Position numbers and translations under genes: made by a program. From Scatophagus argus (taxonomy: Eukaryota; Chordata; Actinopteri; Scatophagidae): a stretch of 64,000 bases of DNA. The notes under the pieces are model-generated. The model was not told the origin of the DNA and did no database searches. It saw nothing but the letters and a program-made list of their open reading frames with translations. The DNA is taken from assembly GCF_020382885.2 (NCBI RefSeq), contig NC_058503.1, forward strand, positions 2,593,110 to 2,657,109, given 5' to 3'. This document shows, in pieces, positions 1-55,200 of the stretch (position 1 is its first letter; every line of letters starts with the position of its first letter).

Positions 1-138
1 GTTTGCAGTCAATATCGATATGTCTTGTGAATATTTCATGGCCCTCTGTGTTTGTACGGTAACCTATGTTTAAGAATCCCATCGTTAAAAAGTGTATTTG
101 ATAAGACTAATCGTCAATACATATCATTATGTGTCCAG

Positions 139-16800: not shown

Positions 16801-19800
16801 CATAAAGTCCCTGTTGGTGTAATGGTCAGGTGGCCCAGTACGTTTGTCTATATAGTGTACTATATGTTCTGTGTGGACTCATTTGAGGGTTTTTGCTTTT
16901 TAATTGCTCATTATCCCGCCATTGTGCAACTGGTTTCCATTGCGTTTGATTCTTCAGACAAAGCTGGACTTTGGCTCTCCCAAGCCTCCTCGCAGAGAGG
17001 CTTTGGAGGAAGAGGCCTCCATTGACTTTGTCTTCATTCCTCCTGAGACAAAGGAGCGAGTTCTGACGGAGCACCAGAAGGAGGTGAAGAGGACTAAAAG
17101 GTCAGAGTTGCCCTCTTCTCTGTTTGCACAATACATTTTGTATATGTCAGTGTTGTGTAGAACTAATGTTTTCTTTGGCACAGGGTTGACATCCCTGCCA
17201 TGTACAACAACCTTGATGCTTCTCTGGATACAACGGTTTTCACACAGTACACACAGACCCAAGAAGACTCTTTGTAAGTTCTGAGCGTCTGCTATCAGAA
17301 TCCAGATAAAACTCTGCTCTCTCATTTAAATAAAAATCATTCTTATGATAAAACCTTTTTATTCACAGGGACAAGCTGCCAGCTGAACAAGTTGACAAGG
17401 TTACTGAAGAGACTCCTGACAAGGTAACAAAACACATCCTCATAAGGAGCACACATGCACAAAAAAACTGCAGTTGTAGCTGTATGTTCTGATTAACAGT
17501 GTATGTGTTGCAAGTGGGTGACCAAAGAGACAGTGCTACAGTATTTGCTGCAGTGACATTACTGCAGTTGGTAATGTTTAAAATTATTGAAGGTAGCCAC
17601 TCACTCAACATAATTTAAAAGACAATATAGCCTATAGGAACATGTACTCTGTATCTTATGTTTTTCTTAGCTTTGAGGGATTTGGGTCAGCCCTAGTTAA
17701 AACAGAAATAAATGTCATTATTTTATTTTTTAGATTCATCAATTGACTACCGTATTTTCACGACGAAAAGGCGCACCGTACGAAAAGGCGCAGTCTCAGT
17801 TATGTGTGCAATTATTGTATTTAACACACAGATAAGGCGCACCTGAAGATAGGGCGCGGGTTTTATATACACGTTTTATATACCGTACACGTCCGCCCCT
17901 GTGTGTATTCATATACTACGTACGCCCGCCTGACAACACACACGTGCATATTTAAAAATAGATCGGGAGCAAAACTGAGTTTGGTTGTGCTTTATTTAAG
18001 TATTAATTACAACACTAAAACAAGCACATTACCGGTAACAGTCACTCAAACCCATTGAAGTCCTCATCCTCTGTGTCGGAATTGAACAGCTGCGCTAAAT
18101 CACACATGGCAGGTTCACGTTCCTCACTGTCAGAGTCAGAGTCCGTGCCGTGCGGCTCCCCAGAAATGATGCCGGCTTTAGCAAAAGCTCGAACAACAGT
18201 GCCAGCAGACACGTTAGCCCAAGCAGCTACAATCCAGTCACAAACTGTGGCGTAACTCGCCCGGCGCTGCCTTCCAGTCTTTGTGAAACTGTGGTCTCCT
18301 TCGGTCATCCACCGCTCCCACGCCGCTCGCAGCCTCACTTTGAACGGCCGGTTCACGCCGATGTCCAGCGGTTGGAGTTCCTTCGTCAGACCTCCCGGAA
18401 TCACAGCAAGCGTAGCGTTCATCTGCTTCACTTGCTTTTTGACGTCGGCGGTGAGATGGGCACGCATGGAATCACAAACCAGCAGCGATTGTGATGTGTG
18501 GAAAAAACCACCCGGTCTCCGTACGTACACCTGCCTCAGCCAATCCTTCATCATTTCCTCGTCCATCCAGCCCTTTTCGTTTGCCTTAATAATGACGCCT
18601 GCTGGAAACGTCTCTTTAGGCAAAGTCTTTCTCTTAAAAATCACCATCGGCGGCAGTTTCTGTCCGTTGGCATGGCAGCCGAGCACAACGGTAAACGAAG
18701 CCTTTTCGTACCCCGTTGTGCGTATCGCTACCGTGCTGGTTCCCTTCCTTTCCACCGTGTGACTCACCGGGATGTCGAACGTCAGCGGCACCTCGTCCAT
18801 GTTGGTGATGTGGCTCGGCTGGATGTTTTTGTCGGCGATGTGTCTGCTGCAGAAAGAGCGGAAGTTCGCCAGCTTCTCACAATAATCCGCCGGACGCTGC
18901 TGCGCTACCGTCGTCCTGCTCCGGATGGAGAAAAGGCACCGCTTCATGAACCGGAAGCACCAAGACGGACCTCCGTGGAAATGTTGAATTTTCATTTCCT
19001 CCGCTAACTTTACTGCTCTAAGCCGAATGGTGACCGTCGAAACGCTCCTCCCACCCGCTCTTTGCTCGACGATCCATTGCTCCAGTCTTTCCTCCAGCTC
19101 TGGCCACCTTGCCTTGTGTCCGCGGAAACTCAGCTGCGTTTTTTTCACCTGTCGCAGCTCGTTCTCCAGCTTCCTCCACTTGCGAACCATTGATTCGTTA
19201 ATTTTATATTCTCTGGCGGCGGCTCGATTCCCGTGTTCCTCGGCGTAGCTGATAGCCTTCAGCTTAAACTGAGCTTCGTAAGCGTGTCTCTTTGCCATTT
19301 TCAGGGTTGTTAAGACAGCAATGTTCTGCATAAAGCACATACCTGTTCTTTTATACACAAATCACGCACCCATGTTCTCTATCACGTCCGCAGCATCATG
19401 GTTCTCACCTACGTCCGCACACAGATAGGGCGCTCTGGACGATAGGGCGCGCTGCACATTTTGAAAAAAATCTAAGACGTTTATATGCGCCTTATAGTCG
19501 TGAAAATACGGTACATGATGTAATTTGAGAGGCCAGTGAACTTTGCATTTTATACATTTGTATTTAATGTCTTTCAGGTTCCTCCGGAAGATGTGGAAAA
19601 TGACAAAGATACTGAAGTTCTAACAAAAGAGACTCAAGACTATGCTAGCCCAGAAGCAGTAGAAAACATGAGAGAAAACCAAGAGCATGAAAAGGTGATC
19701 CCTGAGTTGGCAGATGTTTCTATGGAGGACGATGCCAGGAGTGACGACAGAACAGACGACTTGGACATACAGACTAAAGAAGGCGCAAGTCCCAACAACT

Positions 19801-22800
19801 CTGGCTCTTCAGATTTGATCTCAGGGACTCCTCAGAAACCAAACAGTCGTCGCCAGTCCTTTATCACTCTGGAAAAGTATGCTGAAGGAAAATCTGTCAG
19901 CCCAAACATTTCATCCACATTCACAGGTCCCCTCGTAAAGACCTCCAGTAGCCAAGAACACTCTAAAAACAACAAAACCTATTCTTCTCCGGCTTCCCAG
20001 ACTTCCGCTGGTCCAAGCTCTCAGGATTCCCAGTCCACTCAGACCAGAAAAATTAACTCCCAGCGTCCTGTGGAAAATACCCCTGAGTCTCCTCTAAGGC
20101 CAAAAGACTCTGGGACAAAATGTGAGCCAGTAAGGCTCACTGAGAGAATGTCCAGTGACACAACAGAGGACGAAGATTTTATCCCAGACACCCAGGGTAA
20201 AGTGGAGGGAAAAGAGAGTACAAAAGTGGCTTCCACATTAGAGGAAATGAAACCACAAACCCAGGAAGAGGAATCTGAACTGATGGATGATTCTCAATCC
20301 TCTGAGACCCAGACTTCTCCAGGTGAACCCAGACGTTCTGGACGACATAGAGTCAGACCTCAGCTGCCTGGAGAGAACCATGAAGAACGGGAAGAGAAAT
20401 ACAAGCAATTTAGACGGAGACGTTCTGGAGAGGAACCTCAGAGTGATTCTTCACAGTCAAACAGTACAGTACAAAGCATAAGAAAAACAAGAAGTAAGCA
20501 GGCTGCTGAGGAGGACAGTGGCAGGGACCGATTACGTACAAGGACTCAGAGGGACACGGTTGAGTCAAGCCAAAGCAACTCTCAGGGAAGAGTTCACAAG
20601 AAGATCAGACTGTACAGCAATTCAGAGGACTTGCTCAGTAAACCTGAACCTAAAAGGAGGAGCACCAGAGAGCGCGAGTCCAGCCAAACTGACTCGCAGT
20701 CAGAAACACAGTCTGATTACGGAAGCCAGTCGCAAGGTAGGTACAGAAAGCGGAGCAAATCTCTGGACACCAAGGAAGAGGGTGGAATGAAGAACAAGGT
20801 TTTGCATGATAAAGAATCCAGCCAGAATGCCACAATTGAGCCCTTAGAACAGACCGAAAAGGATGATAATAAACCAAAGAAAGATTCTCAAAGCATCACT
20901 CCTTCCCCTCAAACTAGTAGCAAATCCCAGGAGACTGAGCTTGTAGAACGACTGGAAAGGGACAAGCCAAAGGAAGAGTCTCAAATCGTCGCTTCCTCTC
21001 CTCAAACTGGTGGTGCCTCTGAAGAGTGTGCGCTTACCGAAAAGACCAAGAAGGTTAAAGATTCTAAGATGGTCACTTCTCCAACTAATGACAAATCCCA
21101 AGATAGAACAAGCCCAACAAGCAAGTTGGTGAATGAATCGGAGGTCAAAGACAAACTCAAGACAAAAGTAGACACAGATAACCTCACTCCAGAGGACTCT
21201 CAAGCGATCACACTCTCACCTTCTGATAGCCAGTCTCTGCGTAGATCCAGAAGAAGCAAGGCATCATCTGAGACAGCTGAGTCTGAAGATAAAGGTGAAA
21301 CTAAGTTTTCCTCAGGAAGACAGAGTAGGTCCAATTCCCAGGCAGCATTGTCAGCCGTCAGCCAAGCAGAGGCCACAGTTGGAGGTAGGACTAGAAGGAG
21401 CAAGGTACAAGGGGAGCTATCAAAGTCAAGTCCTTGTTCAACTCCAGAGAGTTCTCAGTCATTAGATGCTGCAGGATCAACAGAGTCCTCCCAAGGCAGG
21501 GGCAGATACTCAAGACGAAGATCTTCTCAAGTGTCATCAACCGGTACTGAGTTCTCGGAGTCTGAATCCTTGGAGGCTAGAGAAAATTCCCCTTTGCCCC
21601 AGAAGAGAGGGAGGAAACGTCGGACATCTCTACTAAGTCCTCTCACCCTTGAATCTAAAGATGGCAAAATTAATAACAATACAGTGAAGAATGATTCTAA
21701 CACTTTACAAAAGGCAGATGTACAAAGCATTGAAGCTAAAACTGCCACCAGTTTAGAGGATTCCCAGAAAACCCAAGATTTGCAGGGTTCTGAATCATTG
21801 CAGGTGACATGTAAAATTGAAGAGCAAAGCGACAAAGCATCGACTGAGGCAGAGGCTGATGTTGTTGTAGAGAAAACTGACCCAGAAAACACAAACATGA
21901 GCAAATCAGTCAGTGCATCACCTCTCATGGAGCAGGAAGGACAAAAGGACTCCAACGTTGATAATACCTCTTTACAAGAAAGTGACACTGGGGACTTGCA
22001 ATCTGCTGAAATGCTTGGGATCATTACTGAACAGACTCAGGAGAAGTCGCACTGTGACTCATCTTTGTCATCTGCTGTGGATAACCTGCTGCTGCCTGAT
22101 GAGGCACGAGAGAAACTGCAGACCTCACAGTCTTCAGAGGAGAAAGATGAAGTCCCTGAGCCTGCTAACGTTGTTCAAAAAAAACAAAATGATGATTCAG
22201 ATTCAAACTGCCAAGAACATCCAGTTGCTCCTAAGGAGGACACAGTTGAAGAGAGTCACAGTACATCTTTTGAACAAAACCAGATGGATTGTCAAAATAT
22301 CATAGATGATGATTTTTCAAAGGAGGAGGAAGTGTTTGCCGTCCAAGACAGCAAATCACCAAACCAGCACACAGAGGCTAGTGATGATGTCACACCTTTA
22401 CAAGAGGGAGATGAAGATGACAAAAACCACACTGCAAAGTGTCAAGAGGAAGAGGAAACTCAAACCACCAAAAGTGAAAACAATTTGGAGGCTTCTTTGC
22501 CTGATGTGTGCAATGCTTCAGGGTTACCAGAATCAACAAGCAAAGATGTTGTCCAGGGTTCTCCGGTGAAGCAGAAGGACCTGGAGGCTGTAATGGTGCC
22601 AGATGTCGGCCAAAGCCCCAGCAGCGGCAGAACCAGAGGAACCTGGTCTCCTTCAGCCTCCCCATCAACCAGTATTCTTAAGAAGGGCCAGAAGAGACCT
22701 CTAGAGGATGAGATGCCCTCACCTCTTGTCAAAGTAAGTGACAAGTGAAATGTACCTTTATTTGTTTGTAATGTCGATGTGGACGAAAGTCGTTTTATTT

Positions 22801-29724: not shown

Positions 29725-32700
29725 ATGCTGACTCAGCTGGTTTTAGGTTGGACTGCCTTGTTCAGTGGCTTCCAGCCGGCTGCTCCCTCTGTCACAGCCA
29801 GTAAGTTCAAACATGAGACAAACAGATCTGAAGATCAAACTAGAACTGCCCATCTGAGCTGTAAGTTGCTCTGAAGATGTTGCTCGGTCGCCACTTGTCA
29901 GCTCACAATAACGGAGAGGTCATGTCAGTGGCTGACACTTAAGCCCTCAGGAGCTACTTAGATGTCTGTATACCTGCTCGCATTGCCTTTGCTAAACAAG
30001 TGGATGATGAGATTAATGAAGACAGTCTCACAATAGCAAGAACTTCCTTGTGCCCAACAATTTGTTTTACACATTGGGATGTGGATGTGTTTGGTGGTAT
30101 TGAAGTGATGATTCAAGTGTAGATGTAACCCGCTAAGACTGAGCTACCACAGGTTAAACTTACACTATATTGCCAAAAGTATTCACTCATCTACCTTTAC
30201 ACGCATATGAACTTAAGTGACATCCCATTCTTAATCCATAGGGTTTAATATGATGTTGGCTCACCCTCTGCAGCTATAACAGCTTCAACTCTTCTGGGAA
30301 GGCTTTCCACAAGGTTTAGGAGTGTGTTTATGGGAATTTTTGACCTTTCTTCCAGAAGCGCATTTGTGAGGTCAGACACTGATGTTGGACGAGAAGGCCT
30401 GGCTCGCAGCCTTCGCTATAATTCATCCCAAAGGTGTTCTATCGAGTTGAGCACAGGACTCTGTGCAGGCCAGTCAAGTTCTTCCACACCAAACTCGCTC
30501 ATCCATGTCTTTATGGACTTTGCTTTGTGCACTGGTGCGCAGTCATGTTGGAACAGGAAGGGGCCATCCCCAAACTGTTCCCACAAAGTTGGGGGCATGG
30601 AATTGTCCAAAATCTCTTGGTATGCTGTAGCAGAGTTCCTTTCACTGGAACTAAGGGGCCAAGCCCAGCTCCTGAAAAGCGATCCCACACCATAATCCCC
30701 ACTCCACCAAACTTCACACTTGGCACAATGCAGTCAGACAAGTACTGTTCTCCTGGCAACCGCCAAAGAAGCGTGATTTGTCACCGCAGAGAACGCGTCT
30801 CCAGTGCTCTAGAGTCCAGTGGTGGCGTGCTTTACACCACTGTATCCGACGCTTTGCATTGCGCTTGGTGATGTATGGCTTGAATGCAGCTGCTCAGCCA
30901 TGGAAACTAATTCCATGAAGCTCTCAAAGCATTGTTCTTGAGCTAGTCTGAAAGCCACATGAAGTTTACGTGGCCTACCGCTTTGTGGCTAAGTTGCTGT
31001 CGTTCCCAATCGCGTCCACTTTGTTACAATACCACTGACAGTTGACTGTGTAATATTTAGTAGCGAGGAAATTTCATGACTGGGCAGGTGGCATCACAGT
31101 ACCATGCTGGAATTCACTGAGCTCCTGAGAGTGGCCCATTCTTTCACAAATGTTTGTAAAAGCAGTCTGCATGCCTAGGTGTTTGATTTTATACACCTGT
31201 GACCATGGAAGTGATTGGAACACCTGAATTCAATTATTTGGATGGGTGAGTGAATACTTTTGGCAATATAGTGTACCTCAGCCCACATTACACAGTTATT
31301 ATGTATCATGATGTATCCTGTACCCTGTGCAGGGGTGAACGCTCATCTAATAATAACTTATGCCAAAAGTTAAAGCTCTGGGCAATGTTAACATATCAGC
31401 TCAGTTCAGTTCAGAGTTTCAGAAAATGTTTTACAAGTCTTTCTGTCTCTCTGTCTGTAGGATTTCTGTCTGGCAGAAACAGCAGGTGGACCGTTAAGAA
31501 ATGTGAAGTCTTCATCCCTCCTCCTCTTCCACCACCTTTGTTTCCTCCAGTCAAACGGAAAGCAGAGCTGATGGTGATGACACACACATAAACAAATTTC
31601 AGCCTTCACTTTTCTCTGCCACAATGTTTTTGTTATACTGGAAAATACATCTGGCCATCTGAACTCCTACACCCAGTGGCTTTAAATTTGGCAAGCATTA
31701 ACATAATAATTATAAAAAAAGTTCAAATATAAAACACATGCATGACTTACATCTGATTCATGCTGGTTTGCCTCAACTTTTCAGGTTGACATAACAGAAC
31801 ACATTACAGGAGCGAAGGGGGAAAAGGTATGAAGGACCTCAGTCATGAACAATGAACAGGACTATAAAACAAGAAATGTCTAATTTAATGAACCGCATTT
31901 GTATTTTAAAGTAGTGGAATTTAGTTTTCACTTTTCTATAATGTTGGTGTTTATGTTTAAAGGGCTGCAGAGGACCCAGAGGACCCAAGGTACAGTGTAA
32001 CAGAGTCACACTCATGCTAACACACTTATATACAGCAATCAGCCTTAATATGAAAACTAGCAGGTGAAGTGAATAACACTGACTATTCAATTCATTTCAA
32101 TTCCATTTATTTATATCGAGCTGGTTCACAACAAAAATTATCTCAATTCAATTCATTTCACTTTTATTTAAAGTGCCAGTTCATAACAGAGTTATCTCAA
32201 GACACTTTACAGATGTGTAAACAACACATTCAAAAAAAGAGAGAAACAGATCCCAGTGCAAAGCCCCACAATGAGTAAGTATTTGGCGACAGTGGTGAGG
32301 AAAAACTTCCTTTTAACAGGCAGAACCCTCGAGCAGAACCAGACTCAGTGTAGATGGCCTCCTGCTGTGACTGGCTGGGAGGGGGAGGGGGGAGAGGAGA
32401 GACAGGGAGATGGAGAGAGAAAGGAGAGGGGGAGAGGAGAGACAGGGAGCTGGAGAGAGAAAGGAGAGGGGGAGAGGAGAGGCAGAGAGATGGAGAGAAA
32501 AAAAGAAGGGAAGAGGAGAGACAGGGAGGATAGGGAGAACAGTGCAGAGCAGGAGCAGCAGGATCCAGGCAAGACCATGGAGAGGGTTCTGGATCCAGCA
32601 GCACTATCAGTGCAGCAGGCAGGGCCGTAGAGGGCTCAGGATCCAGCAGCAGTACCAGGCCTCAGCAGGGTGGGATAGGAGATATGGGATCCAGCAACAT

Positions 32701-35700
32701 GCTCCGATGTAAGATGCATCCCGCATCTTGGGAACATAAAGCTCTGGTGCAATACCAGGGAACTATCAGCTCTTTAAGATATGATGGTGCCTGGCTGTTC
32801 AGGGCTTTATATGTGAGGAGAACATTTTTAAACTCTGTCCTGGATTTTACAGGCAGCCAATGTAGAAAAGCCAGTGCAAGACAAATATGATCTCTAATGC
32901 TGGTTCTTGTGGCAGCGGTGTTCTGGATTAGCTGGAGAGTCTTTAGAGACTTATTGGGGCAACCTAATAAAAAGGAGTTACAATAACCCAGCCTGGAAGT
33001 AATAAATGCATGGACTAATTTTTCTGCATCTTTCTGACTCAGAATGTGCCTAATTTTTTTTACAAAATATAGCAGAGGTAAAAGAATGCAGTCTTTGAAA
33101 TATTTGTTATGTGTGAGTTAAAGGACATGTCCTGGTCAAAAACAGCTCCTAAACTCCTTATAGTGGAGTTTGAGGCCAAGGTTAAGCCATCTCGAGTTGC
33201 TCTATCATTGGATAATAAGTGTTCAGGGCCCAGAACAATAACTTCAGTTTTGTTCAAATTTAGAAGTAGAAAATTGCAAGTCATCCAGGTTTTTATGTCT
33301 TTAAAATACACCTGAAGTTTGGCTGGCTGATTTGTTTCATCTGGTTTCACTGACAAGTACTACTAATGGCTTGGTGCCAGATTCAACAGCATACCTCTAG
33401 AGGTTTGCTGGAGTCCAGGCCTCAACAGGTCACGGCTGCTTTGCAAAAACTTAATATTAGGCGAGTGGTAATAACGTTATGGCTGATCGGTGTATATAAT
33501 CACAAATACATTTAACCCAGTCTACATATGCAACTGTGTAAGCCTGGAGCCCTATTGTTGTTTTTATTCAGATGAAGATAAAAACTGTTATGTGTATTTC
33601 AGGGCCAGCCTGGTGTGATGGGTCCAGTTGGAGACCCTGGAGCACAAGGAGCCATTGGACAGCCAGGTCAAAAGGTCACAGAAAGACTGTCTGCTACCAA
33701 CACACCAGCTATCACACACAGACATACTGCGCATCTGCAACTGCAGCATAACTTATGTAACTTTAAAACACACTTGTGGGTGAACAAAATGGTTCATCCC
33801 TATGTAATCCATGGCTGTGAGGCTACAGAAATGAGTTCTACTGACTTTCTTTTGGCATAGGAGTTACTTGATAAATTGACAACTATTCCTTTAAAGTGGT
33901 AAATTTATTATCTGTTTGTGTCCACAAAGAGAATTAACTTCTGAGTAATAAATCTTCCACATTTAGAGTTCTCTTTCTCTACCATTGTGAACCATTGTGT
34001 GTTGTGAACATAAGATGTAGCAGAAATAGCTGTACAGTGCTTTACATGCTGATCTAATGCTTCCATAGGGGGAGAAGGGAGACAGAGGCTGGAGGGGCCT
34101 GTATGGAGACATAGGAACTCCTGGGACGATGAAGGTACATTGGAGCTGCAGTTATTCAGCTCTTGTTGGCTCATATATATGGAAAATATGTTATGTCATG
34201 TTATGTCATGTTTTCACATTGTATACTACCTGGCTTACACACATATCACATAAACTGGACTACAGAACAAGGTGAAATGTAAATGACAAAAGTTAATCAT
34301 GAACAATTGCTATATGGTCAAGTTAGTCAGCACCACACGTAGGCTGTTATTTACACCCATTGTGATGGAGAAAATCAAAGTTATATGAATATAGAACATG
34401 TAAAATCCAGTATCACAACATGCATATTTACCATCAATACTACTTTTATTCTGACCAAGCACATCGCTATTGCTCAGAGCTGCTGACATAGCTCCTCCTC
34501 CATCTACCTGCTCAATGTGACGCTGACCTGTCTTCAGTTGAGCTGAGCAGGTGGTGAAGGCATTCCTCCTCAACATCACACTGTCCTTAGGTGGTATCAG
34601 TTGCAGTTGTTTGTAGTAATTTTATGATTACAATCCATCCATCCATCCATCTTCTTCTGCTTTATCCGGAACCGAGTCGCGGGGGCAGCAACTTGAGCAG
34701 GGATGCCCAGACTTCCCTCTCCCCAGACCCTTCCTCCAGCTCTTCCGGATGGACCCCATGGCGTTCCCAGGCCAGCCGAGTGACATAGTCCCTCCAGCGT
34801 GTCCTGGGTCTTCCTCGGGGCCTCCTCCTGGTGGGGCATGTCCAGAACACCTCCCCAGGAAGGTGTAATCTGAAACAGATGCCCGAGCCATCTCGACTGA
34901 CTCCTCTCGATGTGGAGGAGCAGCAGCTCTACTCAGAGCTCCTAACGGGTGACAGAGCTCCTCACCCTAAGGGAGCACCCCGCCACCCTGCGGAGGAAGC
35001 TCATTTCAGCCGCTTGTATCCGTGATCTCGTTCTTTCGGTCATGACCCAAAGTTCATGACCATAGGTGAGGGTAGGAACTTAGATTGACTGGTAAATTGA
35101 GACGTTCACCTTTCGGCTCAGCTCCTTCTTTATCACGAGGGACCGCATTACTGCTGTCGCTGCACCAATCCGCCTGTCAATCTCACGCTCCCATCTTCCC
35201 TCACTCGTGAAAAAGACCCTGAGATATTTAAACTTCTCCACTTGAGGCAGGAACTCTCCTTCAACCTGGAGGGGGCAGACCACCTTTTTCCAGTCGAGAA
35301 CCATGGCCTCTGATTTGGAGGCACTGATTCTCATCCCAGACACTTTGCACTCGGCTGCTAACCTCCCCCACAGGACAATATTATCCGCAAAAAAACAGAG
35401 ATGAAATCCTGTGGTTCCCAAACCAGCTACCCTCCGGGCCCTGGCTACGCCTAGAAATACTGGCCAATAAAATTAATGAACAGGTGACAAAGGGTAGAAC
35501 TGCCGGAGGCCAACATGCACTGGGAACAGGTCTAACTTACTGCTGACAATGCGGACCAGACTCCTGCTCCAGGAGTACAGAGACCACACACCCCTTAGCA
35601 AAGGGCGGACGCTTTTCCAGAATTTCCTCGAGGCCAACAGATAGTCCTCCTCCATGGCCTCCCTGAACACCTCTCAGACCCAAGTTTTTGCTTCCACAAC

Positions 35701-38700
35701 CACTCGGGCTGCATCGATACCTGTCAGCTGCGTCGGGCGTCCCACAAGCCAACCAGGCTTCCATGTCCCCATAGCCAGAGTTTTTGTCCAGGGTTTGGGT
35801 AGCCGGGATCCCCGCCCACAGCTGTCGCCCAAACCACATTGCACTGGCCCCTTCTGAACCTTCCTTCGGGTGGTGGGCCTACTGGAGAGCGGGCCAACGT
35901 CGCTTATTCGGGCTGTACCCGGTCGGGTCCCGTGGGCACAGACCCGGCCACCAGACACTCGCCTGTGATCCCCAACCCCAGCATTTCTGATTACAAGTAC
36001 ATTAGAAATACATATTTCAGTTTCCTGGTCTGGAAATGATGGAAGTTAAAATTTGTGTGTATTTACAGGGCAGTAAGGGGCGTAAGGGATTCAGGGTAAG
36101 TGGCTATCATGCTGAATGTCCTTTTTTCTTTTTTATACAGTGGCATTTCCAAAGAGCAACACTACTGTTTGCCACTTATTTCATCTCTATTTATTGCTGT
36201 CTTCCCTGTAGGGTGATAAAGGTGTAAAAGGAAACAGAGGACCCAAAGGAAAAATGGTGAGGAAAAATGTTTCATTTCCTGTATCTGGAAATGTGACACA
36301 ATTATATGAATGAAGTGTTCATACCAATCTGTGTGTCTCATTAGGGCGAGCGTGGCATCACTGGAGCTTCAGGAGATAAGGTAGAGGACTGGCTGCCATA
36401 ATTTACATCAAGTCATCAAAATAAAAGACAGCTGACAACACTATGAATGTTAGTAAAGCTAGGAAGACATGGTATTCTGTGCTGCGCTGTTCCAGGGGGA
36501 CTCAGGTCAGTGGGGCACTGCAGGGCTGAGGGGTGAGCAAGGAGCCAGAGGAGAGCCTGGTGGCAGAGGACCCATGGTATGTATATACAGAGGATGCATA
36601 CACACAGAAATACATATTGTGTATGTGTAAAAGGCTAACATGAACCAGCTGTTTTTGGCAGAGAAATTTAAACACTGGTCAATACAGTCATCTTGTTAGC
36701 AAACTAAACTAAATTATTGTAAAGAAAGAGGGGAAGACTGAATAATTACCCCACCAGTCTATCATCTTTAACTCAGTGTTGCTGCAGTTTGATTATTATC
36801 TTAAGTGTGAATGATGTATGGCTACACTTTTGCTGGTTGAAATATTCAGATTTAGAAAGAGTGCTTAACTGGGTGTTAATGAGTTGCTTGTGTCTGCTTC
36901 CAAATGTTCACATTATCAGTGACAATTTCATAGACATTTGGACATTTTTTCTTGGTGTAACCCCACATTCTGAACTTGCAAATCCAAATACAGATATGAG
37001 TGTGATCTATTAGTTCCAGCTTAAATTCATATTCATTCAATAATTTGCCTTTGACACAGCTGGATGTAAGAGAGTGGTATGTCTGCCTTCTAACCAGCTA
37101 GTTGTTTGGTCAGTCAATTACTCATTAAATAAATAAATAAATCACTGTGTGCAGGGACTGAAAGGATCTCGTGGACCTGCAGGAAAGCTGGGTCGTCCTG
37201 GTTCAGCAGGTCTTCCTGGTCTGACTGGAGAGCCTGGACAACCTGGACAAGGTGCGTGACAACAGGAAGGTCACAGATCGCCCAGTAATTTTCTACAAGA
37301 CAAATAAAATTCCGAATACAGCTCTACTAGTGGAGTGGACCCAGCTGAGTCTCAAAAGTCTCAAACTTTGGAATATCTAGATCCCTTTTGACCACAGTCT
37401 GATTTAACTGGTGGTGGGAGATTCACACCTGGCCCAGTTCCATGCTCCACTTTGCATCCACTGAGGCCAACAAATTTGACTCACTGGTACAACAATATGG
37501 GACACTAATACATAGATATGCACATTACTAATCTTGTGTAATCAAGATACCAGAGAACACAAGGAACTGGACTCAGATGTAGATACTGCAGGAAGAGCTT
37601 GTGTAGTTCAACGATTTCATGAACAAAATACAAATGATAAGTAGCTTACAGCAGGTTGAGCCAGGCAAAGGTCAAAACCTCATGAGACAATCCAATAACA
37701 CAAATAAATCTGTTAAGGAACAAGTAAGTAACAAAATCCAGAGGGGTGTACTACAAACCAAGATTATTAGGTTAGTGTGTTGTTGTAGGTATGTTGAGCC
37801 CGAAGCCAGGGTTTTCAATGTCTTGAAGGAGTCTCTCTTTTAATCTGGCTAGATCACCATGGTAACTCACGTTTTACATCTACCCTGGTCCTAAATAGCT
37901 GCTTTGCATGAAAATGGCTGTTAACAGGGCATAACCCCGGAATGGAAACCTAACATGGACAAGGTGAAACCGATCAGGGCAATCACAAAGACAGGAAGTA
38001 AAACAACATGACACATGAGAAGAACATGAAGCTTCCGAAACTAAACTGACAGCCAAAACCACGACAGGTTGACCTTTGAAGAAAATCAAAAAGATCAAAT
38101 TGAAATCAAGACGAGAATTACTGTTAAAAAGAGAAACCGGACTGTAAATATGGCATGAATATGTTGTCATACTGATCGTGTGGTGCTGTTCAGCTATGTT
38201 GACCTTGTCTTGTAGTGTACATCCTACCTGGCCTGCAGGGAGACACAGGAAACCGAGGTCCTTCAGCCACATGCAACTGTTCACAGGTTCAAACCCCAAA
38301 ACGACAGCTGAACACAGTCAGGACGGTCAGTGTCTCACACACACATTGTTGACTGAAACATACTGTCATGTTCACTGACGATGCTGCATGCATGTTGTAT
38401 TATGATCAACACTTACATTCACTTTCCTGATGATTAAGCTTAATGTTAGCCATAGTTCGACTGTTTCAACCACAGTTTAATTCAATTTTATTTTAATTAA
38501 CAATATGTACAGGTGTAAAATGAAAAGAGGCATACATGCATAACACAGTAGAGAAAAAAAAAAAAACCTGCAGCTTTGATGCTCACTGGCAGCAGGTGGC
38601 TCAAATGTGAACAGCACAGTCAGTGATGAGGTGTGCAATGACAACAACTGGACAGCTTCTCCTTATGGTCTCCACTTCCATGAGGCCCATCAGACAGTTT

Positions 38701-39317
38701 CCCCTTAAGGATGAAAGCATTGTCAAATGATCTCTGTGTAAACAGGCATATATGGCTCGCTCTCCAGATCTTTATTGCAGATGGAGAGAAACAGATGAGG
38801 AGGCTGCGGGGGGAGAACGTGATGGTGCTGAGGACGGACAGAAAAGCTCTGTACATCTACACTGAATCTCAATGGATTAACGTACTGGTAAGTGCCGCTG
38901 GAGAGAAATAAAACACCAGGATGGAATCACCACAAAACATACATATTCATATACATATAGGCGTAATGGTGGTCCTATCAATTAGGACTGAGAGAAAAAA
39001 CATTTTGATCCAGAGATGACATTACTTCTCTTTTAATAAGACACAAAAATGAATTCAGAATTCAGACTGAATATATCAAGTTGGAAACAGATTGAAAGCC
39101 CATGATGTACTAGAGTTGAGTTATGTAATCTTGTTTTTAAGAGTTTACAATTGCCACTGAGTGCTGAAGTGAAATCAGAGCTTCTAGGTTCTGTTCCATA
39201 GGTAAAAAAAGATGTTGTGGTTGTCAGAATGAGACTGAGTTTACTACAATGTTCTTTTACTTATTCCTCTGTTTTCATGCTTCTTCCTGATTGGTCCAGG
39301 ACTACCCCAGGCACTGA
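29725..39317 (+). CDS. Secreted short collagen related to ColQ, with PRAD-like motif
   Basis: Coding exons: 29725-29800, 31461-31573, 31785-31826, 31963-31989, 33603-33674, 34069-34134, 36069-36095, 36212-36256, 36345-36380, 36496-36576, 37155-37251, 38216-38325, 38768-38887, 39300-39317. Phase is kept throughout, giving 309 residues. Order: signal peptide (1-25); basic segment with a lone Cys40, then [12 protein letters not shown] (44-55), matching the proline-rich attachment domain by which ColQ holds acetylcholinesterase tails; Gly-X-Y repeats from about residue 72 to 243, in exons of 27, 36, 45, 72 and 81 bases as in collagens; CNC at 247-249, like the ColQ CLC; then [13 protein letters not shown] and [12 protein letters not shown], aligning with the ColQ segment before its cysteine-rich domain. 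That last domain is absent. The middle has basic clusters ([18 protein letters not shown]) that could bind heparan sulfate. Likely extracellular and trimeric. I know no standard gene name; ColQ relationship is from motif comparison by eye. Confidence 0.85.
30163..31273 (-). mobile_element. Full-length but decayed Tc1-like transposon
   Basis: Inverted repeats of about 30 bases (CACTATATTGCCAAAAGTAT at the left, its reverse complement at the right) are flanked by TA at 30161-30162 and 31274-31275, giving 1,111 bp. The minus strand carries Tc1 transposase pieces, including [15 protein letters not shown] and [20 protein letters not shown]; the N in the usual [14 protein letters not shown] motif is kept but neighbours have changed. 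Frames are broken. It sits in the intron between the signal-peptide exon and the PRAD-like exon of the ColQ-like gene. Confidence 0.9.
32095..33362 (-). mobile_element. 5'-truncated L2/Rex1-type LINE with tail
   Basis: On the minus strand, 33362 down to about 32700 encodes reverse-transcriptase C-terminal sequence ([20 protein letters not shown], then degraded SRLGYCNS- and WLPVKSR-like phrases). A CT-rich tandem repeat and an AATAAAT-type tail end near 32095. It ties the TTTATTTATATAG-type tails elsewhere in the window to an actual reverse transcriptase. It lies in an intron of the ColQ-like gene, antisense. Confidence 0.8.
32391..32535 (+). repeat. Polypurine 40-bp minisatellite
   Basis: Units start at 32391, 32431, 32471 and 32511. 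Each begins GGAGAGGAGAGACAGGGAG (with small changes) and is almost pure A/G on the plus strand. There are about 3.5 copies inside the LINE 3' region. Long polypurine mirror-like tracts can form triplex DNA. Confidence 0.8.
34633..35985 (-). mobile_element. Rearranged non-LTR retrotransposon with GGAT tail
   Basis: Minus-strand fragments encode [38 protein letters not shown], and [20 protein letters not shown] near the 3' end. Upstream pieces include [20 protein letters not shown] and [10 protein letters not shown]. The element ends in (GGAT)n at 34633-34651. Parts of the reverse transcriptase are missing between the blocks, and frames are broken. It lies in an intron of the ColQ-like gene (34135-36068). 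Clade not resolved. Confidence 0.8.
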
Positions 39318-39480: not shown

Positions 39481-39677
39481 GTTAAATAAGGGCTGGCCTG
39501 TTCCCTGTATAGCTCCTCATCCATCATGTTTCTCTTCGCTTAAACGACACTTATCTGTGCTTTTTTTTGTAATGTTTTCCTTTTATGTGGTTTTATTTCA
39601 TGAATTCAGAACACATTATATATTTCACCCTATGGATTCTGTTGCTGCTGCAGTGATTAAACTCTGACATAAAGGAA

Positions 39678-39683
39678 AATAAA
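39678..39683 (+). terminator. Polyadenylation signal of the ColQ-like gene
   Basis: AATAAA lies 361 bases after the TGA stop at 39315-39317. It is the first hexamer downstream. Confidence 0.5.
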
Positions 39684-46846: not shown

Positions 46847-49231
46847 CTACCACTCACTGGTCAGTTTGGTGCTTTGGTCCCGTTTTGGAGGAGCGGGAGG
46901 TGGGCCTCGCCGCAGTGTTGCATAGCCTGAGATGTTGGCATGTTTGGTGGAGTGTGAGTGTGTGTGGTGGCGAGACAAAGTGTGAGAGTGCCCTCGGACA
47001 CTCTGCTGCTGCTGCTGCAGGAGCTCAGGGGGAGGAGGTGGCAGGAGTGCCATGTCGTCCATGGTGCCCACAGGCTCCATCTTAGAGGAGGAGATGAGGT
47101 GGGAAGAGGTGAGTGAGCCATGGCGGGACACTGACTTCCTCTTAAGAGTGCGGTTGAGGTCTTCCAGGAACAGAGGCTTTAGTGCCAGGGAGCCTGGCCC
47201 TGCTGATTTTGGGGATGTGGGTGGGACAGGAGAGGAGGAGGCAGAATAAGAGGACAGGGAGGGAGGTGGGGTCTGAGACAGAGGAGGTGGGGAAAGGGGC
47301 TTTGAAGTTGTATTGTCATACTGGGCTGTGTTGCTGGGCCGCCGGTTCAGTGCTGGAGGAGGGACTGCCCCCTTTTTCACTGAGCCTTGTTTCCATGATG
47401 ATGAAGACAAGGAAGTTGCTGACTGTTGAGGTGGCTGCAATTGAGGCTGGGGGTTCACCACGGCGACCTTTGGGGGATGATGGAACTCTGATGGGTGGGG
47501 AGGAGGAGGGAAAAGCTCAGAGTCACTGGGCGGAGGAGGGAAATAGTCAGGTGATGAGTCAAGGTGAAGGGGCTGGGAAGGGGGAGGTGGGGGAGGAGGG
47601 GATGGGAACTCGGAGGACTGGTGGTGCTGTCCTGTTTGCAGCCCCTGGATTGCCAATGGCAGGCTTGCCAAGTTCAGCTTACCTGGCTTAGGGAGTGGAG
47701 CAGGGAGCCCAGAAGTATCTTTTGATGGAGACCCAGTCACTGATGAAGAGTTGGATGAGGTACCTGTTTGAGGAGCTTGGCCAAATTTGCTGACCAGGCT
47801 CTCCACCTTCTTAGGTCTCTCATCCTGGATCTCAGCTGATGAGCTGCCCCGTATGGAGGAAGCTCTCTGTGGGGTTGGTGGAGGCCCACGCTTGGTGGAT
47901 CCTGTGGACGAGGTGGAAGGTGACTTCTTTATGGGGGAGCCCGTCTTGGAGGAGGATGAAGAGGGAGGAGGAGGAAAATCTCCCAGGGAGCTGTCAGGAG
48001 GAGGTGGAGGGAACTCTGGGGACTGTGGGGCCACAATGCCTCCGGGCTGCCACTTTGGTTTGGCCTTGACTGCAGGAGGAGAGTGAGGAGCACCAAACTT
48101 AGATCCTTCCATGGAGTTGGACGCAGACAGAGAGGAAGGGGCAGAATTTCCTGGGAACTGATTGACAATCTGTTTGACCAAAGAGGAGGTAGCTGCAGCA
48201 ATGGAGACTGAAGAAGAGGGGGAAGAGGGAGAGAGGGCAAGGTTTTTGGAGGAAAGGCTGTGCTGCTTTGGCAGAGTGGGAGGTGGCTGATTTGGGGAAT
48301 GTCCTGTTGAGAAACTTTGCTGCTTTTTAACTGGCCCATGGCCACTATGGGGTTGTGTTGGTGACACAGGTGAGAGGGCAATTGGAAGAGAAGAAGGACC
48401 TGAGGGTTTGGGAGCAGTTTGAGGAGGAAAACCACTGGTAAAGGTTTTAGGAGGTGCCGGAGGGGGCGCACTGGGGGACAGAGGCCGAAGAACTTGCAGG
48501 GAGGTAGGAGGAGAAAGCTCAGCTGGAGGAGGAGGAGGAGGAGAATTATCCTCAGCCACTGGGGGGCTGAAGTCATACACCATGTTGGGAAACTTCTGTG
48601 CCAGGAACTGCTGGAGGCCACTGTTAGAGAGTTGAGGGCAAGAGTTGAGGATGGGCTCTGGAGGGGGTGGCAGAGGCAACCCATTGGCTTCCAGGCTCTC
48701 TGGTGGAGGGGGCGGGAGGTACGACTCCTGTACATCCTCCTCCATTGGGGGTGGTGGTGGGAGAGCAGAAGGGCTTGATGGACCAAATTTCAGTGCAGCC
48801 ATAGCTGAGCCAGGAGCCGGTTCTGTGGGTGGAGGAGGAGGTGGAGGAGACGGTGGTAATGGGGGGGATGTGCTATAAGAAGCTGGGAGTGTGTTGTAGT
48901 TAGGTTTGGTCAACTGGATGGGAGGGGCAGGTGGGGCCACTCCTACCGGTTGTGTCCTGGACTGGTTCTGGCTTTGCAGGCGAGCGAGCGTGCTGTACTT
49001 TATGTATGAGGAGGTAGGTGCTGTCTGATGGGCCACACTTGCAACAGGTGGAGGAGGTGGAGGTGGAGGAGGTGAGGGCGGCGATGGGGAGGAATCCTCA
49101 GATGGGATGAGGCCGTCAGTGTAGCTAGTCCGGGAGGGTGGGGTCTGAGGTTGAGAGAGAGGGACGGGCTGGGGAGAGATGGTAGGTATATGGACAGGGA
49201 TAGGCCTACTGATAGGGTCGATCTTCATCAT
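46847..49231 (-). other. raph1: raph1 last coding exon: 794-residue Ena/VASP-binding proline-rich tail
   Basis: The exon opens after a CTATCCAG acceptor with [20 protein letters not shown]. It holds four FPPPP-type motifs ([40 protein letters not shown]) and several LPPPP motifs, the ligands of EVH1 domains, plus many PxxP sites for SH3 domains. [40 protein letters not shown] and [16 protein letters not shown] match conserved blocks of vertebrate lamellipodin. The antisense strand is also open over long stretches because of the skewed base use. Confidence 0.92.
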
Positions 49232-52200
49232 CTGGATAGGGAAATGGACAGGGGAGAGAGAGGGAAGAGACAGGAACAAGAGCATAAGGGAGACAGAGAG
49301 AAAGGGGAGGAATCATGAGAGAAAGAAGGAGCATAGAGGCAGGGAAGTGGGAAGGGAAGAAGCAAAAGGAGATAAAGAGACATAGGAGAAAAGGGTAATG
49401 AGAGAAAGAATGAGAGACAAAATCACAACAAATAACAAAAAACTACCATTGTCATGTTTCTAAAACCAACCAACTTAAGACAAGATGCAAGAAATCAAAC
49501 CAAACGACAAGTGCAATCTGAGAAGACACAAGTACTAAAACTCCAAACACATCGCAAAATTGAATGAGGCCAAGTACATTCAGCCACTGAAAATTATTGG
49601 CAACTGCAAAGGAAGTGATAGAGGTACTATGGAGTGACTTAGGTAAGTATATCTATCTGTCCATTTTCTCAACTATTACTCAACTGATTTTGAACAGATT
49701 TTAAACCGTGAGAGAGCTGTTGTCCTTTCCCTTAGCTGACGTTTATAGGGATCTAGATGAATCTAAACCTGTGATGAATGGAACAAAATCCTGTGGCCTC
49801 AAAAACTCCACTGCTGTGTCCTTTAACAGACCATTATTATGTTTTGATGTTAATGTTTTGACACAGAGGTGAGGGCCAGTGTTGCAAGCATCTGCATTTT
49901 GCAACCTTGCAAGCTCTGGATTGTCTGGACATGTCATAAACTGCAACTATGATGCTAAGTGACACGATGGTATGGACAAAATAGCTTTCTGAATTGGCTT
50001 TCTGTATGCATACACAGTTACGGCTCTGCCACTCTGCTCCAGCTTCACTACAAGCCATAAGTTGTAAGGCAACCCACCAACACACACTCTTTCAGGAAGT
50101 GGGCATCTGAGGCAGATGAAGCCCTGAGGGACGGCTGTCAGTCTACTGACTGGGTAGTGCTGCAGGAGGCATGCAGTGAGGACTCAGAAGGGATCACAAG
50201 ATGCACCGCTGACTGCATCAACTTCTATACAGATGTTGTTTTTCGCACCAGAACTGTGCGCTGCTTTTCTAACAACAAGTAACAACTATATTTTATACTA
50301 TCTATCTATCTGCCATTTAGTGGTGTCAAACAAGCTGTGAACCGTTTTGGAAATTGTAAAACTAAGCACTGTTCAAAAGGTTGCAAACAAGGTGTCAAAC
50401 CACATTTAACAGGTTGTAATCTGGTTGCAAACTGAATCAAATAGGTTGTAAACCGGAACCAAAGGGTGACAAAAATGCCCATGTCTTAGATTTCTGTTTC
50501 TGTTATATTATTTACTGGTTAGGACATTCCATCACACCACAAGGTTAGAACAAATCAACAGTTCAGCTGCAGCCTCAAATAAATGTGTGTGTGTGTGTGT
50601 GTGTGCATATATATAAACGTTATATATATAGACTTTTAGCTCTTCTATGTATTGGTGAGGCCTTCAATACAAAAGACCAGGAAATTCTTTTAAATTGTTT
50701 GAGGGATTGAGGTAGTGTCTGAGGTCCTGCTTTTAACTGCTTTAGATCTCATCAATAGAATCTTCTCATCACTCTTGGTAACTCCTCATCCTGCCTGGTC
50801 GAAGGTTCTGTTCTATGTGCAGTCCTGTTTTGGTTTTATATGCTTCCCCAGGGTCACAGAATGCAAAATATAACGTTTGTTGTCACAGTAATGCGGATGG
50901 CATGCAGTTATATACATATATGTAATATATAAATCAAAATTACAAGTTGTATTTGACTCTCAATGTTGAAGAGAAGGTTAAGAGAGTCCTTTGAGCTGTT
51001 TTCCTAAAATCACTTCCAAAATAAAATGCTTTCTGACCTTCAGTGATAAGGAGGTCATACAAGATTTTACTTTTTCCCAAACTTGACCCATGCAATTCAC
51101 TGTCTTCCTGTCTCAGTCAGAAGTAAGCGTCACACCGACAACCAGCTCAGAATTCTTCTGCCAGGCTTAGGACACAAAAGAGACTGGCTCTCCTACATTT
51201 TTAAAATGATGTAAAAATTTTATTATTTAGTTTTAAAGCACACCATGGAACGGCAAGTTAGTATATAATAGATTGTTTAACTTCCTAGGAGCATGATGCT
51301 CATGCTGTTAATCTGAATTGGTCTTTTACTGCCAAGACCACCAAACTCTGATAAACACTTCCTGTGGAGCTTAAATCCTTAACACTTATATCCACATTTA
51401 AAAAGCATTTAATAAGCTTTTCTTTTTAGGACAGAATTTTTTCTGCCTGTACGTGCACATATGTTTATGTGCATATTCATGGTGAAGTATGTACAGATAA
51501 TGTACAGATAATGTGTATGTACCACGATACTGTCATTTATCGCTTGATAATAATACTTACTTGTTTTTATTATTACTTAATTTATTTTGCTTTTGTCGTC
51601 TTTTGAAGGAAAATAAATTAATAACAGAAAACAAAATTGGAAAAACAGTGAGATCAAACAAAGCAAATATATGCCAACAAAGAATGCTGTATGGACTTCT
51701 GTAAACCTAAAATTTGGATTTGACTTTTGGATTTGCATCAGTTGTGTTTTACAGGCTGCAGCCAAACTGTTACCATGCCTGTTACATCACTTCCTGTCTA
51801 ACCTCCACTCCCTCCTCCTCCTCCTGCACAGAGAGGAACTGGCATACGTCCCTTCACTTTTGACCACTGGCAGAGAAGCAGAGGGGAAATATGGGAAATG
51901 TAGTCTGCAAGTAAGCATGACAATAACAGGAAAGGATAGCACAGAGTGTGTTTGTTTGTTTGTTTGTTGGTGTTCACACCTCTCCTTGCGTTCCTCTCCT
52001 CCAGGCATCGGAGAAGATGGAGCTGACGACACTCTGGGACCTTGTGTGGCCTGATGATGTCATCTCTGAAACACCACTGTCAGACTGGCTGGAGTGGTTG
52101 GACTGGGACTCTGGAGTGTGACCACACAAGCAAAAGAGAGTTTCACTGAACTTTTACTACTGACAACGCTTACTCTTATTTTGATTTTTGGCTAAATCAT

Positions 52201-55200
52201 ATTTGTAAATGGATATCATTAATGTTTAAAAATGTTACGTTCATTTTTCTATTTCTGTGCAGAAGACAAACGGACCTGGAAGGCTGGAGGAGCTGGATCC
52301 TGATTTGATAGAGGAAGAAGAGAGGGAGGACCAATCATAGGCCGCCTCAGTCCTCCTCATTGCCTCCTGGAAATTGATGTACAGCTGCTTCCCATACTGT
52401 CAGACAGACAGACAGACAGACATTGGCAGATATGCAACTACATGAAAATGACAACGAACAAATAAAGTGATACTGCAGCATGAAGAATGTTGGTGTATAA
52501 AAGACACTGTTTCTACAGGATCATACATTAGCAAATGATGTGCACAGAAGCATTACATCTTTTACGACGAGACAAGTTACTACCTTGGCAATGCGAATAC
52601 TGTTGATCCATTGTTGGAGGGTTCTGACATCATCACAACAGAGGTACTTGATGTACTGAGACTTCTTCTGGATCTGAGGGTGCTAATTACACACACGCAC
52701 AAACACACACACTGTATCACTGTAAAGGATACTTTGTTTCCTTCTTTCCTACATATATATATACACATATATATATATATATATACACACATATATTTCT
52801 TTCTTTAAACTGAGTTATTGTGTTGTTGTTACACTGTTACGCCACTAGGTGGAATCACAAGACTAGCAGTTATTTATCCCAAGCTTCATCCCTTCTGTGT
52901 ATACATGTGTGTACGTGTATGTGTGTGTCCCTGAGTGTACCTTCAGCACCATGCAGAAATCTGTAGGGGCCTTGTACTTGCTCTTGTAGTCCTGGCCATG
53001 ATAGACATTAACGTGATCCAACTGGAGAAAACACACCAGGTCTCTGGATGCCTGCACAAACACACACAGACACTCAGTTTTACAGTTAAAAAAAAAGATT
53101 GTTAAACACAAGTACTGTTGCTTTCCATAATCCTATCTTTAGGTTTATTCACACACCTTAGCCTTTCCCTTAGGAACATAGTAGATGCCAGAAGCCCTCA
53201 GGAGAAAGTAGCGTTTCTTCCACGACTTCTTTCCATCCTCTTTTAGCCACAACACTCCCTCCATCTCGGGGACTGACACTGAGCTTCCACCAAAACACTC
53301 CTGATACAGACAAGAAGACAGGCAGACACACACACAAAAAGAAACAACAGATATTAGTTGGTGCTTGTTCAATTTCAGCCTACACTACATTGCAACAACA
53401 AATATAATGGATAAGCAGTGTGTTTGACTATTGGACTGAGAGAGACAAATGTGCAGATCTGACTTTGAAATCAATAAAGATTTCCCCACAATAGCCAATA
53501 TACTGCCATCTTTAGAAAGCTCTTTTAGTCCTAATCCATCTCTGGACAGCTTCCTGCCCATAGACCTCCCTGAGCTGACCTCCAGTATTAATAAATCTAA
53601 CCCAACTACATGTCTCTTAGACCCCATCGCAACTAAGCTCCTCAAGCTCCTTATTAGATCAACTCTTTAACAACAGGTTATGTACCACAGGCGTTTAAAA
53701 CTGCTGTTATCAGACCCTTAATTAAAAAACCTTCACTTCACCCAAACATCTTAGAAAACTATAGGCCGATATCCAACCTCCCATTTGTTTCTAAAATACT
53801 TTTATTTTATGCATTTTATTACACAGATTAGAACATGAGACTAGGATCACAGGGACAGCACTAGGCCTATCTATCACTATCTGATAATCATATTTATCAG
53901 ATAGAATTCACTTCGTTCATATTAATGATGTTTCCTCTTCATATATAAGGGTTAACCTCGGTGTTCCACAGGGTTCAGTGCTTGGGCCCATCATGTTCAC
54001 CTTACACATGCTCCCTTTAGGAAACATTGTTCAGAAACATGGCACAAACTTTCATTGTTATGCTGATGACACCCAGCTGTACAGAGCCATTAGCCAGGTT
54101 CCAGGCATGTCTTAAGGACATAAAGGACTGGATGACCTCCAATTTTTTATTATTAAACTCAGACAAAACTGAGGTCATTGTTTTTGGCCCCAAACATCTT
54201 ACAACTAGAATAGCTGATAATGTTCTCTCTCTGGACGACATTACTTTGGCCTCCAGTGCGGCAGTGAGGAACCTCGGCGTTACCTTTGATCAGTGTCATT
54301 TATCCATCATATTAAACAGATCTGTAAGACTGCTTTTTTTTCACCTCTGTAATATTGCTAAGATTAGGAGCATTCTCTCTCAGAGTGATGCTGAATGACT
54401 CATCCATGCTTTTGTTACTTCTAGGCTGGATTACTGCAACTCATTATTATCAGGATGTCCAAATTACTCTATTACTCTAAGGTCCATACCTGCAGGATCT
54501 AATAGTCCCATATATTCCCAATAGATCACTCAGATCACAGAGTGCAGGTTTACTCGCAGTTCCCAGAGTTCATAAAAGTAGAACGGGAGGACGAGCCTTT
54601 AGCTATCAGGCACCCCTGCTGTGGAACCAGTTGCCAATCTGGGTTCGACAGGCAGACACCACCTCCACTTTTAAGACCAGACTTAAAACTTTTCTGTTTA
54701 GTAAAGCATATAGTTAGCCCCAAATAAAGTGTGTAGGGCTGGTAGGCATAGTTACAGTCACTTCTTGACAGACAGCCACAGGTAGAATAAGGCTGACTAA
54801 CTCTTAGTCTTTAATCTCTATCATAGCTACGCTGCTATAGGCCTGTGCTACCGGGGGACACAAACATGATCCACCAAACAGTTCCCCCTCCTCCACAACA
54901 CCACCACCATCTGTACTCCCCCACCTCAAGTCAAGTCAAGTCAAGTCAACTTTATTTGTATAGCCCATTTTTACAAGCAGTTTGTCTCAAAGGGCTTAAC
55001 ATAACATCAGCAACATCCTCTGCCCTTCGACCCTCACATCGACTAAGGAAAAACTCCCAGAAAAACCTTTAACAGGAAAAAATGGAAGAAACCTCAGGGT
55101 GAGCAACAGAGGAGGGATCCCTCACCCAGGACGGGCAGACGTGCAATGGATGTTGTACAGGCAGGAAAGCAATTTGCAACATGAGAAATGACATTACTAA

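Follow-up and report, generated by a model that had tools for sequence, protein, structure and literature searches.

A 64,000-nucleotide stretch of the Scatophagus argus genome (contig NC_058503.1, positions 2,593,110 to 2,657,109; hereafter the window, numbered from its first letter) contains at 29725-39317, on the forward strand, a collagen gene related to COLQ. Sequence comparisons indicate that this gene is not a variant ColQ but belongs to an older, separate paralogue group, which we call COLQL, and that a true COLQ exists in the same species. We are highly confident that the window gene is a COLQL lacking the cysteine-rich domain (CRD). The reading that we favour, with a probability of about 0.62, is that COLQL would be secreted as a trimer that organises cholinesterase T-subunits but is not targeted to MuSK/LRP4. 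The initial annotation, which described a compact ColQ-like collagen that could be a free, matrix-bound anchor for cholinesterase tails or for another WAT-type tail protein, is partly supported.

The exons were rebuilt from the DNA. As first predicted, there are 14 coding exons in a single frame, with GT-AG boundaries at 13 out of 13 introns, and the open reading frame (ORF) of 930 nt encodes 309 residues and a stop. The parts of the protein follow the ColQ order: a signal-like start (hydrophobic core LVLGWTALF, judged by hydropathy alone), C40 and a proline run, collagen, a CxC (CNC, residues 247-249), a trimerisation-like segment and the C-terminal end QWINVLDYPRH at 39317. When the protein was compared with Pfam at E-values up to 1, it matched the Collagen family (E 1.4e-26; 56 triplets in runs of 20, 32 and 4) and nothing else. 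A public S. argus protein named "collagen alpha-1(XXIII) chain-like" (P0027) is the same as our model over residues 1-141, beyond which it follows the translation of intron 7 exactly; this public model is therefore shortened by a retained intron. The ordinary COLQ of S. argus is a separate protein (P0052), which bears CC and PPPPPLFPPPP, the KRGK motif and a CRD; across 324 columns of an alignment, it is 35% identical to the window protein.

Phylogenetic position of the window protein

Querying with the last 67 residues retrieved 22 relatives with 66-88% identity, 21 of which bear fish names (P0005 bears none). The named relatives are percomorphs, and more than 20 percomorph genera are represented among the relatives. 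Two collagen-masked searches found COLQL in paddlefish, reedfish, gar, sturgeon, Polypterus, Arapaima, eel and lungfish, and then reached the true COLQ of fishes, squamates and one marsupial. COLQL from sharks, coelacanth or tetrapods was not among the matches, although a word-based search may miss such sequences, and the matches from carp, loach, catfish and characin were all COLQ, within the limited sensitivity of these searches. Many members of the group are named "acetylcholinesterase collagenic tail peptide-like" in the database, and automatic annotation had thus already picked up the resemblance; some others are named as collagen alpha-1(X), (XXIII) or alpha-2(IX)-like. Judged from titles and abstract starts, none of the open-access papers listed deals with the COLQL group, and no paper was found with the phrase "collagenic tail peptide-like".

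From the 89 proteins that were retrieved or derived from the window, we chose 36 for phylogenetic analysis (15 COLQ and 21 COLQL rows). One branch parts COLQ from COLQL, with supports of 100/100 in the full-length tree, 100/98 with the trimer domain alone and 100/100 without the CRD. In these three trees, the window protein lies on the COLQL side, outside the COLQ clade, and is not grouped with unrelated collagens; the kinship to ColQ put forward in the initial annotation is thus upheld. As the COLQ side includes both teleosts and tetrapods, these sequence trees place the separation of the two paralogue groups before the parting of ray-finned and lobe-finned fishes. All 15 teleost COLQL group together in the full tree (100/99) and when the CRD is left out (99/98); the tree built on the trimer domain alone (69 columns) does not bring them together. 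The lungfish protein lies closest to COLQ in two of the trees, the full one (96/91) and that without the CRD (85/64); the third, from the trimer domain, puts it among teleost COLQL (47/56). In addition, three species (S. argus, Fundulus heteroclitus and Channa striata) have both a COLQL and a COLQ protein. If the COLQ (3p25) and RAPH1 (2q33) regions share the SATB1/2, PLCL1/2, RFTN1/2 and ANKRD28/44 pairs, COLQL would date from the genome doublings early in vertebrate history; a literature search on the 2q33/3p24 paralogon found nothing.

Absence of the cysteine-rich domain

We used tblastn to compare seven CRDs with the whole window. No CRD was found (the best match, with E = 0.038, lies upstream and on the other strand), whereas control queries of the trimer segment matched exon 13 at 2e-4 to 1e-9 in the same search; a CRD divided among several small exons would more easily escape this method. 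The 24.7 kb that follow the gene within the window, which extend into RAPH1 on the other strand, contain no CRD-like stretch. The end at DYPRH without a CRD, read from the DNA at the outset, is thus borne out by the ORF and by the genomic sequence past 39317 in the window. Moreover, in 12 chosen COLQL-COLQ pairs (4 COLQL x 3 COLQ), identity is higher in the CRD (55-69%) than in the trimer domain (32-48%), so that a CRD exon in the window should have shown up.

All six non-teleost COLQL proteins retrieved carry the CRD, whereas it is missing from each of the 30 percomorph-type proteins whose sequence extends through the trimer domain. In eel and Arapaima, too, the models end directly after this domain without a CRD, which brings the teleost-type total to 0 out of 32. 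A short [DE]..RH tail resembling the DYPRH of the window protein closes 7 of the 30 percomorph-type ends, as would be expected for a genuine last exon. The simplest reading is that the CRD was lost once, in the teleost branch; judged from the gene models of other species, its loss appears general in teleosts, and this is well supported.

Proline-rich motif and collagen domain

The PRAD-like motif, defined as a sequence pattern, occupies residues 40-55, between the signal-like start and the collagen. The window residue is conserved in aligned relatives at a mean of 77% over residues 40-56, compared with 43% in the linker before the motif, 60% at the non-Gly sites of the collagen and 89% in the trimer domain (percomorphs). 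The pattern of Cys, proline run and FP was found in 34 of 48 COLQL proteins, with FL instead of FP in two more; the remaining 12 models have a late start or a different N-terminus. In the window protein, one Cys (C40) precedes the proline run and there is no adjacent pair, as initially noted. This feature is not distinctive, because the five squamate COLQ in which the motif was found (P0066, P0070, P0081, P0083 and P0085; not found in a sixth, P0084) also carry a single Cys, with 8-11 prolines before LF. At the same place, CC and 4-5 prolines are usual in the COLQ of fishes and the marsupial. The number of Cys beside the proline run also varies within the COLQL group: gar COLQL (P0074) has ECCKIC and eel COLQL (P0076) has three Cys before the run.

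The collagen part, as delimited for the search of heparin-type BBXB motifs, is 175 residues long in the window protein versus 194-204 in 11 fish COLQ rows. All 41 COLQ proteins contain the KRGK motif, compared with two of the 48 COLQL proteins, those of Arapaima and eel. It is absent from the window protein, whose collagen contains no other BBXB. We scanned all 36 tree rows for BBXB within the collagen. Among percomorph COLQL, 1 of 13 rows has such a motif (Labrus, RKGK); among non-teleost COLQL, the lungfish has KRDR and the other five have none (the Polypterus sequence being partial). The second ColQ-type motif, RKGR, was present in 3 of 15 COLQ rows, none of them from a fish. Since KRGK is rare across COLQL, its lack is a trait of most of the group rather than a percomorph-specific change. 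The anchorage of ColQ involves contacts of the distal C-terminus with LRP4/MuSK and also needs two heparin sites in the collagen (PMC10671321). The term "matrix-bound" used in the initial annotation is therefore weakened by the absence of KRGK without replacement, although the window collagen is still basic (29 K+R vs. 13 D+E), so that loose matrix binding may occur.

C-terminal domain

With five COLQ trimer segments as tblastn queries against the window, exon 13 was matched at E-values of 5e-6 to 2e-4. The C-terminal domain aligns with that of COLQ over its full length, and C, C, N, R, D, L and W are invariant in 14 chosen rows. In a predicted model of the Pampus orthologue (P0001), this region forms a beta-alpha-beta-beta-beta succession (E205-209, H212-217, E223-227, E232-237, E240-243). 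Foldseek comparison of this model with the PDB gave 3n3f, 9bnb, 3hsh and 3hon as top matches, with middling scores; among the ten best, eight are named collagen XV/XVIII trimerisation domains and two are complexes with designed trimeric antagonists from the same series. The C-terminal domain is thus predicted to resemble the collagen XV/XVIII trimerisation domains, and the window protein quite probably trimerises through it. Among Pfam profiles, PF20010 weakly matched 2 of the 14 C-terminal segments (best E 0.074), behind SGL (4 of 14, best E 0.0085), which we took as chance. PDB sequence searches with the PRAD-like segment, the C-terminal segment and the 14-row profile gave no meaningful match, and no paper was found that links ColQ with "trimerization domain" and "collagen XVIII".

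Exon organisation

All coding exons are on the forward strand. Exon 1 (29725..29800), delimited by the ORF, its GT donor and hydropathy, contains the start codon and the signal-peptide-like segment. Exon 2 (31461..31573; GT-AG boundaries and frame) is kept in relatives and includes the PRAD-like motif from C40 to P55 (31502..31549), located by the rebuilt ORF, a motif scan and conservation in relatives. Exon 3 (31785..31826) encodes VDITEHITG and the collagen start. The rebuilt ORF then places collagen in exons 4 (31963..31989), 5 (33603..33674), 6 (34069..34134, with a stretch conserved in relatives), 7 (36069..36095, after which P0027 reads through into intron 7 in the alignment), 8 (36212..36256), 9 (36345..36380), 10 (36496..36576) and 11 (37155..37251). 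Exon 12 (38216..38325; ORF and alignment) comprises the collagen end, the CxC (38272-38280) and a linker. Exon 13 (38768..38887) encodes the 40-residue trimerisation-like segment, identified by the ORF, tblastn and alignment, and by the fold prediction for its counterpart in Pampus P0001. Exon 14 (39300..39317; ORF and relatives) encodes DYPRH and the stop, and non-teleost relatives run on into the CRD at the same point. Two string matches to poly(A) signals, ATTAAA (39656) and AATAAA (39678), are candidates at 39656..39683 (+), about 340-360 bases 3' of the stop. Intron 1 contains an element (30161-31275) that looks like a Tc1-type transposon remnant; it is bounded by perfectly matching 29-nt terminal inverted repeats (TACACTATATTGCCAAAAGTATTCACTCA), which are separated by 1057 nt.

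Proposed function and alternative explanations

We propose that COLQL split from COLQ before ray-finned and lobe-finned fishes separated, and that the teleost branch would then have lost the distal CRD, the part of ColQ that docks on LRP4/MuSK, while retaining the proline-rich N-terminus and the C-terminal trimerisation domain. COLQL would be secreted as a triple-stranded collagen, in which the polyproline segment of each strand could gather four T-type (WAT-tailed) AChE or BChE subunits, and the three-stranded tail could carry up to three tetramers. The result would be a collagen-tailed enzyme, soluble or loosely held, that is not sent to the neuromuscular junction. A three-stranded tail is the simplest mechanism for a protein that combines a conserved proline run with a trimerising domain at its opposite end. 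The proline runs of ColQ, PRiMA and lamellipodin are described as gathering four WAT-tailed cholinesterase subunits (PMC6152381, PMC5943944), the former source naming these three proteins as proline-rich tetramer organisers. Taken by itself, the binding of cholinesterase by COLQL has a somewhat better than even chance.

Several observations weigh against this reading. The trees are unrooted, and the long lungfish branch shifts among them. Fifteen of the 30 percomorph-type models appear to run into the intron after exon 13 and thus say little about the CRD, and the eel and Arapaima ends may be intron read-through too. The long branch ahead of the percomorph crown in COLQL leaves room for a change of ligand, neither of the known ColQ anchoring features was found in the window, and a single Cys stands beside the proline run. 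These last three points agree with the main alternative, a trimeric secreted collagen whose proline-rich end binds something other than cholinesterase, the cholinesterase role having gone along with the synaptic anchor. We consider this rather unlikely, though it is the rival to be taken most seriously: the PRAD-like motif is conserved above the preceding linker and the collagen X/Y sites, the ColQ order of Cys, proline run, F and P is kept in 34 of 48 COLQL, the others mostly being models without the N-terminus, and BChE tetramers assemble on proline runs alone, in agreement with work on AChE (PMC6152381).

The other explanations appear very improbable. A degenerating, teleost-specific duplicate of COLQ would account for the absence of this domain and for the fact that, at limited search sensitivity, carp, loach, catfish and characin yielded only COLQ. 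A teleost-only duplicate is contradicted by the approximately unbiased (AU) test, which rejected the tree keeping teleost COLQL with teleost COLQ (p-AU 9.5e-7), and COLQL is present in lungfish, gar, sturgeon and reedfish; decay also fits poorly with an intact ORF, intact splice sites and a trimer domain 89% conserved across percomorphs. No less improbable is a truncated model, with a CRD-encoding 3' exon located farther off or lost from the assembly. Our gene model was built from DNA alone, and the read-through in half of the 30 relatives would be compatible with such a truncation; against it stand the 24.7 kb without a CRD-like stretch, the shared [DE]..RH tail and a COLQL-COLQ identity in the CRD that is high enough for detection. 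As for an unrelated short collagen with a proline run arisen by chance, the database names of some members as other collagens point that way, and its probability is nevertheless close to nil, as the C-terminal domain aligns with that of COLQ, with seven invariant positions. This candidate is contradicted by the tree joining the window protein to CRD-bearing relatives of COLQ.

As a ColQ-type gene found from lungfish to percomorphs, with no synaptic docking domain in teleosts, COLQL would be a natural experiment that parts the two jobs of ColQ, i.e. gathering the enzyme on one side, placement and LRP4/MuSK signalling on the other. A possible second tail would have to be reckoned with in studies of ColQ loss in fish, and names such as "collagen alpha-1(XXIII) chain-like" conceal a relative of the cholinesterase tail. 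More tentatively, and with doubts outweighing our confidence, teleost COLQL, lacking the domain that docks on LRP4/MuSK and in percomorphs also KRGK, might give synapse-free collagen-tailed cholinesterases for use outside the neuromuscular junction (e.g. in blood, skin mucus or the general matrix), or compete with COLQ for T-subunits.

Neighbouring features

The downstream neighbour of the collagen gene, on the opposite strand, is RAPH1 (lamellipodin), at 52866-53384 (-), identified by a match to PDB 4gn1 for 52866-53132 (E 1.6e-17) and by a PH match in 53148-53384. A proline-rich frame at 46850-49312 (-) presumably belongs to the same gene. Polyproline peptides of RAPH1 organise human plasma BChE tetramers (PMC6152381). 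The adjacency of COLQL and RAPH1, two polyproline genes linked to cholinesterases, is probably a coincidence, though a striking one.

Farther upstream, 111-368 (+) encodes a CUB domain that strongly matches TNFAIP6/TSG-6 (2wno, E 2e-38); summing over four CUB stretches gives cubilin (3kq4) the higher score. The long ORF at 19524-22745 (+), which had no Pfam match, bears a putative resemblance to RIF1. An open transposase frame of 439 residues lies at 18045-19361 (-), apparently within the upstream gene, with DDE_1, Tc5-type and Brinker DNA-binding domains. A tRNA scan of the window found none.

Comparison with known systems

The C-terminal segment shares its predicted fold, in the Pampus P0001 model, with the trimerisation domains of collagens XV and XVIII (multiplexins), although sequence identity is about 10%. 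In multiplexins an endostatin domain follows the trimerisation domain, whereas none follows this segment in the window. Lamellipodin is an intracellular adaptor. Its polyproline peptides are fragments of this adaptor, in contrast to the secreted collagen proposed here; the likeness lies in the organisation of WAT tetramers by polyproline, described for plasma BChE (PMC6152381). PRiMA likewise has a proline-rich segment and organises AChE tetramers (PMC5943944). It is membrane-anchored, whereas the window protein has a collagen domain and, by hydropathy, no transmembrane anchor (the best hydrophobic 19-mer after residue 40 averages 0.18). COLQ has the same parts in the same order (Cys and proline run, collagen, CxC, trimerisation domain). 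It differs from the window protein, which lies in a separate paralogue group, has no CRD, no KRGK, one Cys instead of an adjacent pair, and a shorter collagen. Finally, the COLQL of gar, sturgeon, paddlefish, reedfish, Polypterus and lungfish, most of which are named "acetylcholinesterase collagenic tail peptide-like", share with the window protein both this order and their side of the COLQ/COLQL split, but they retain the CRD.

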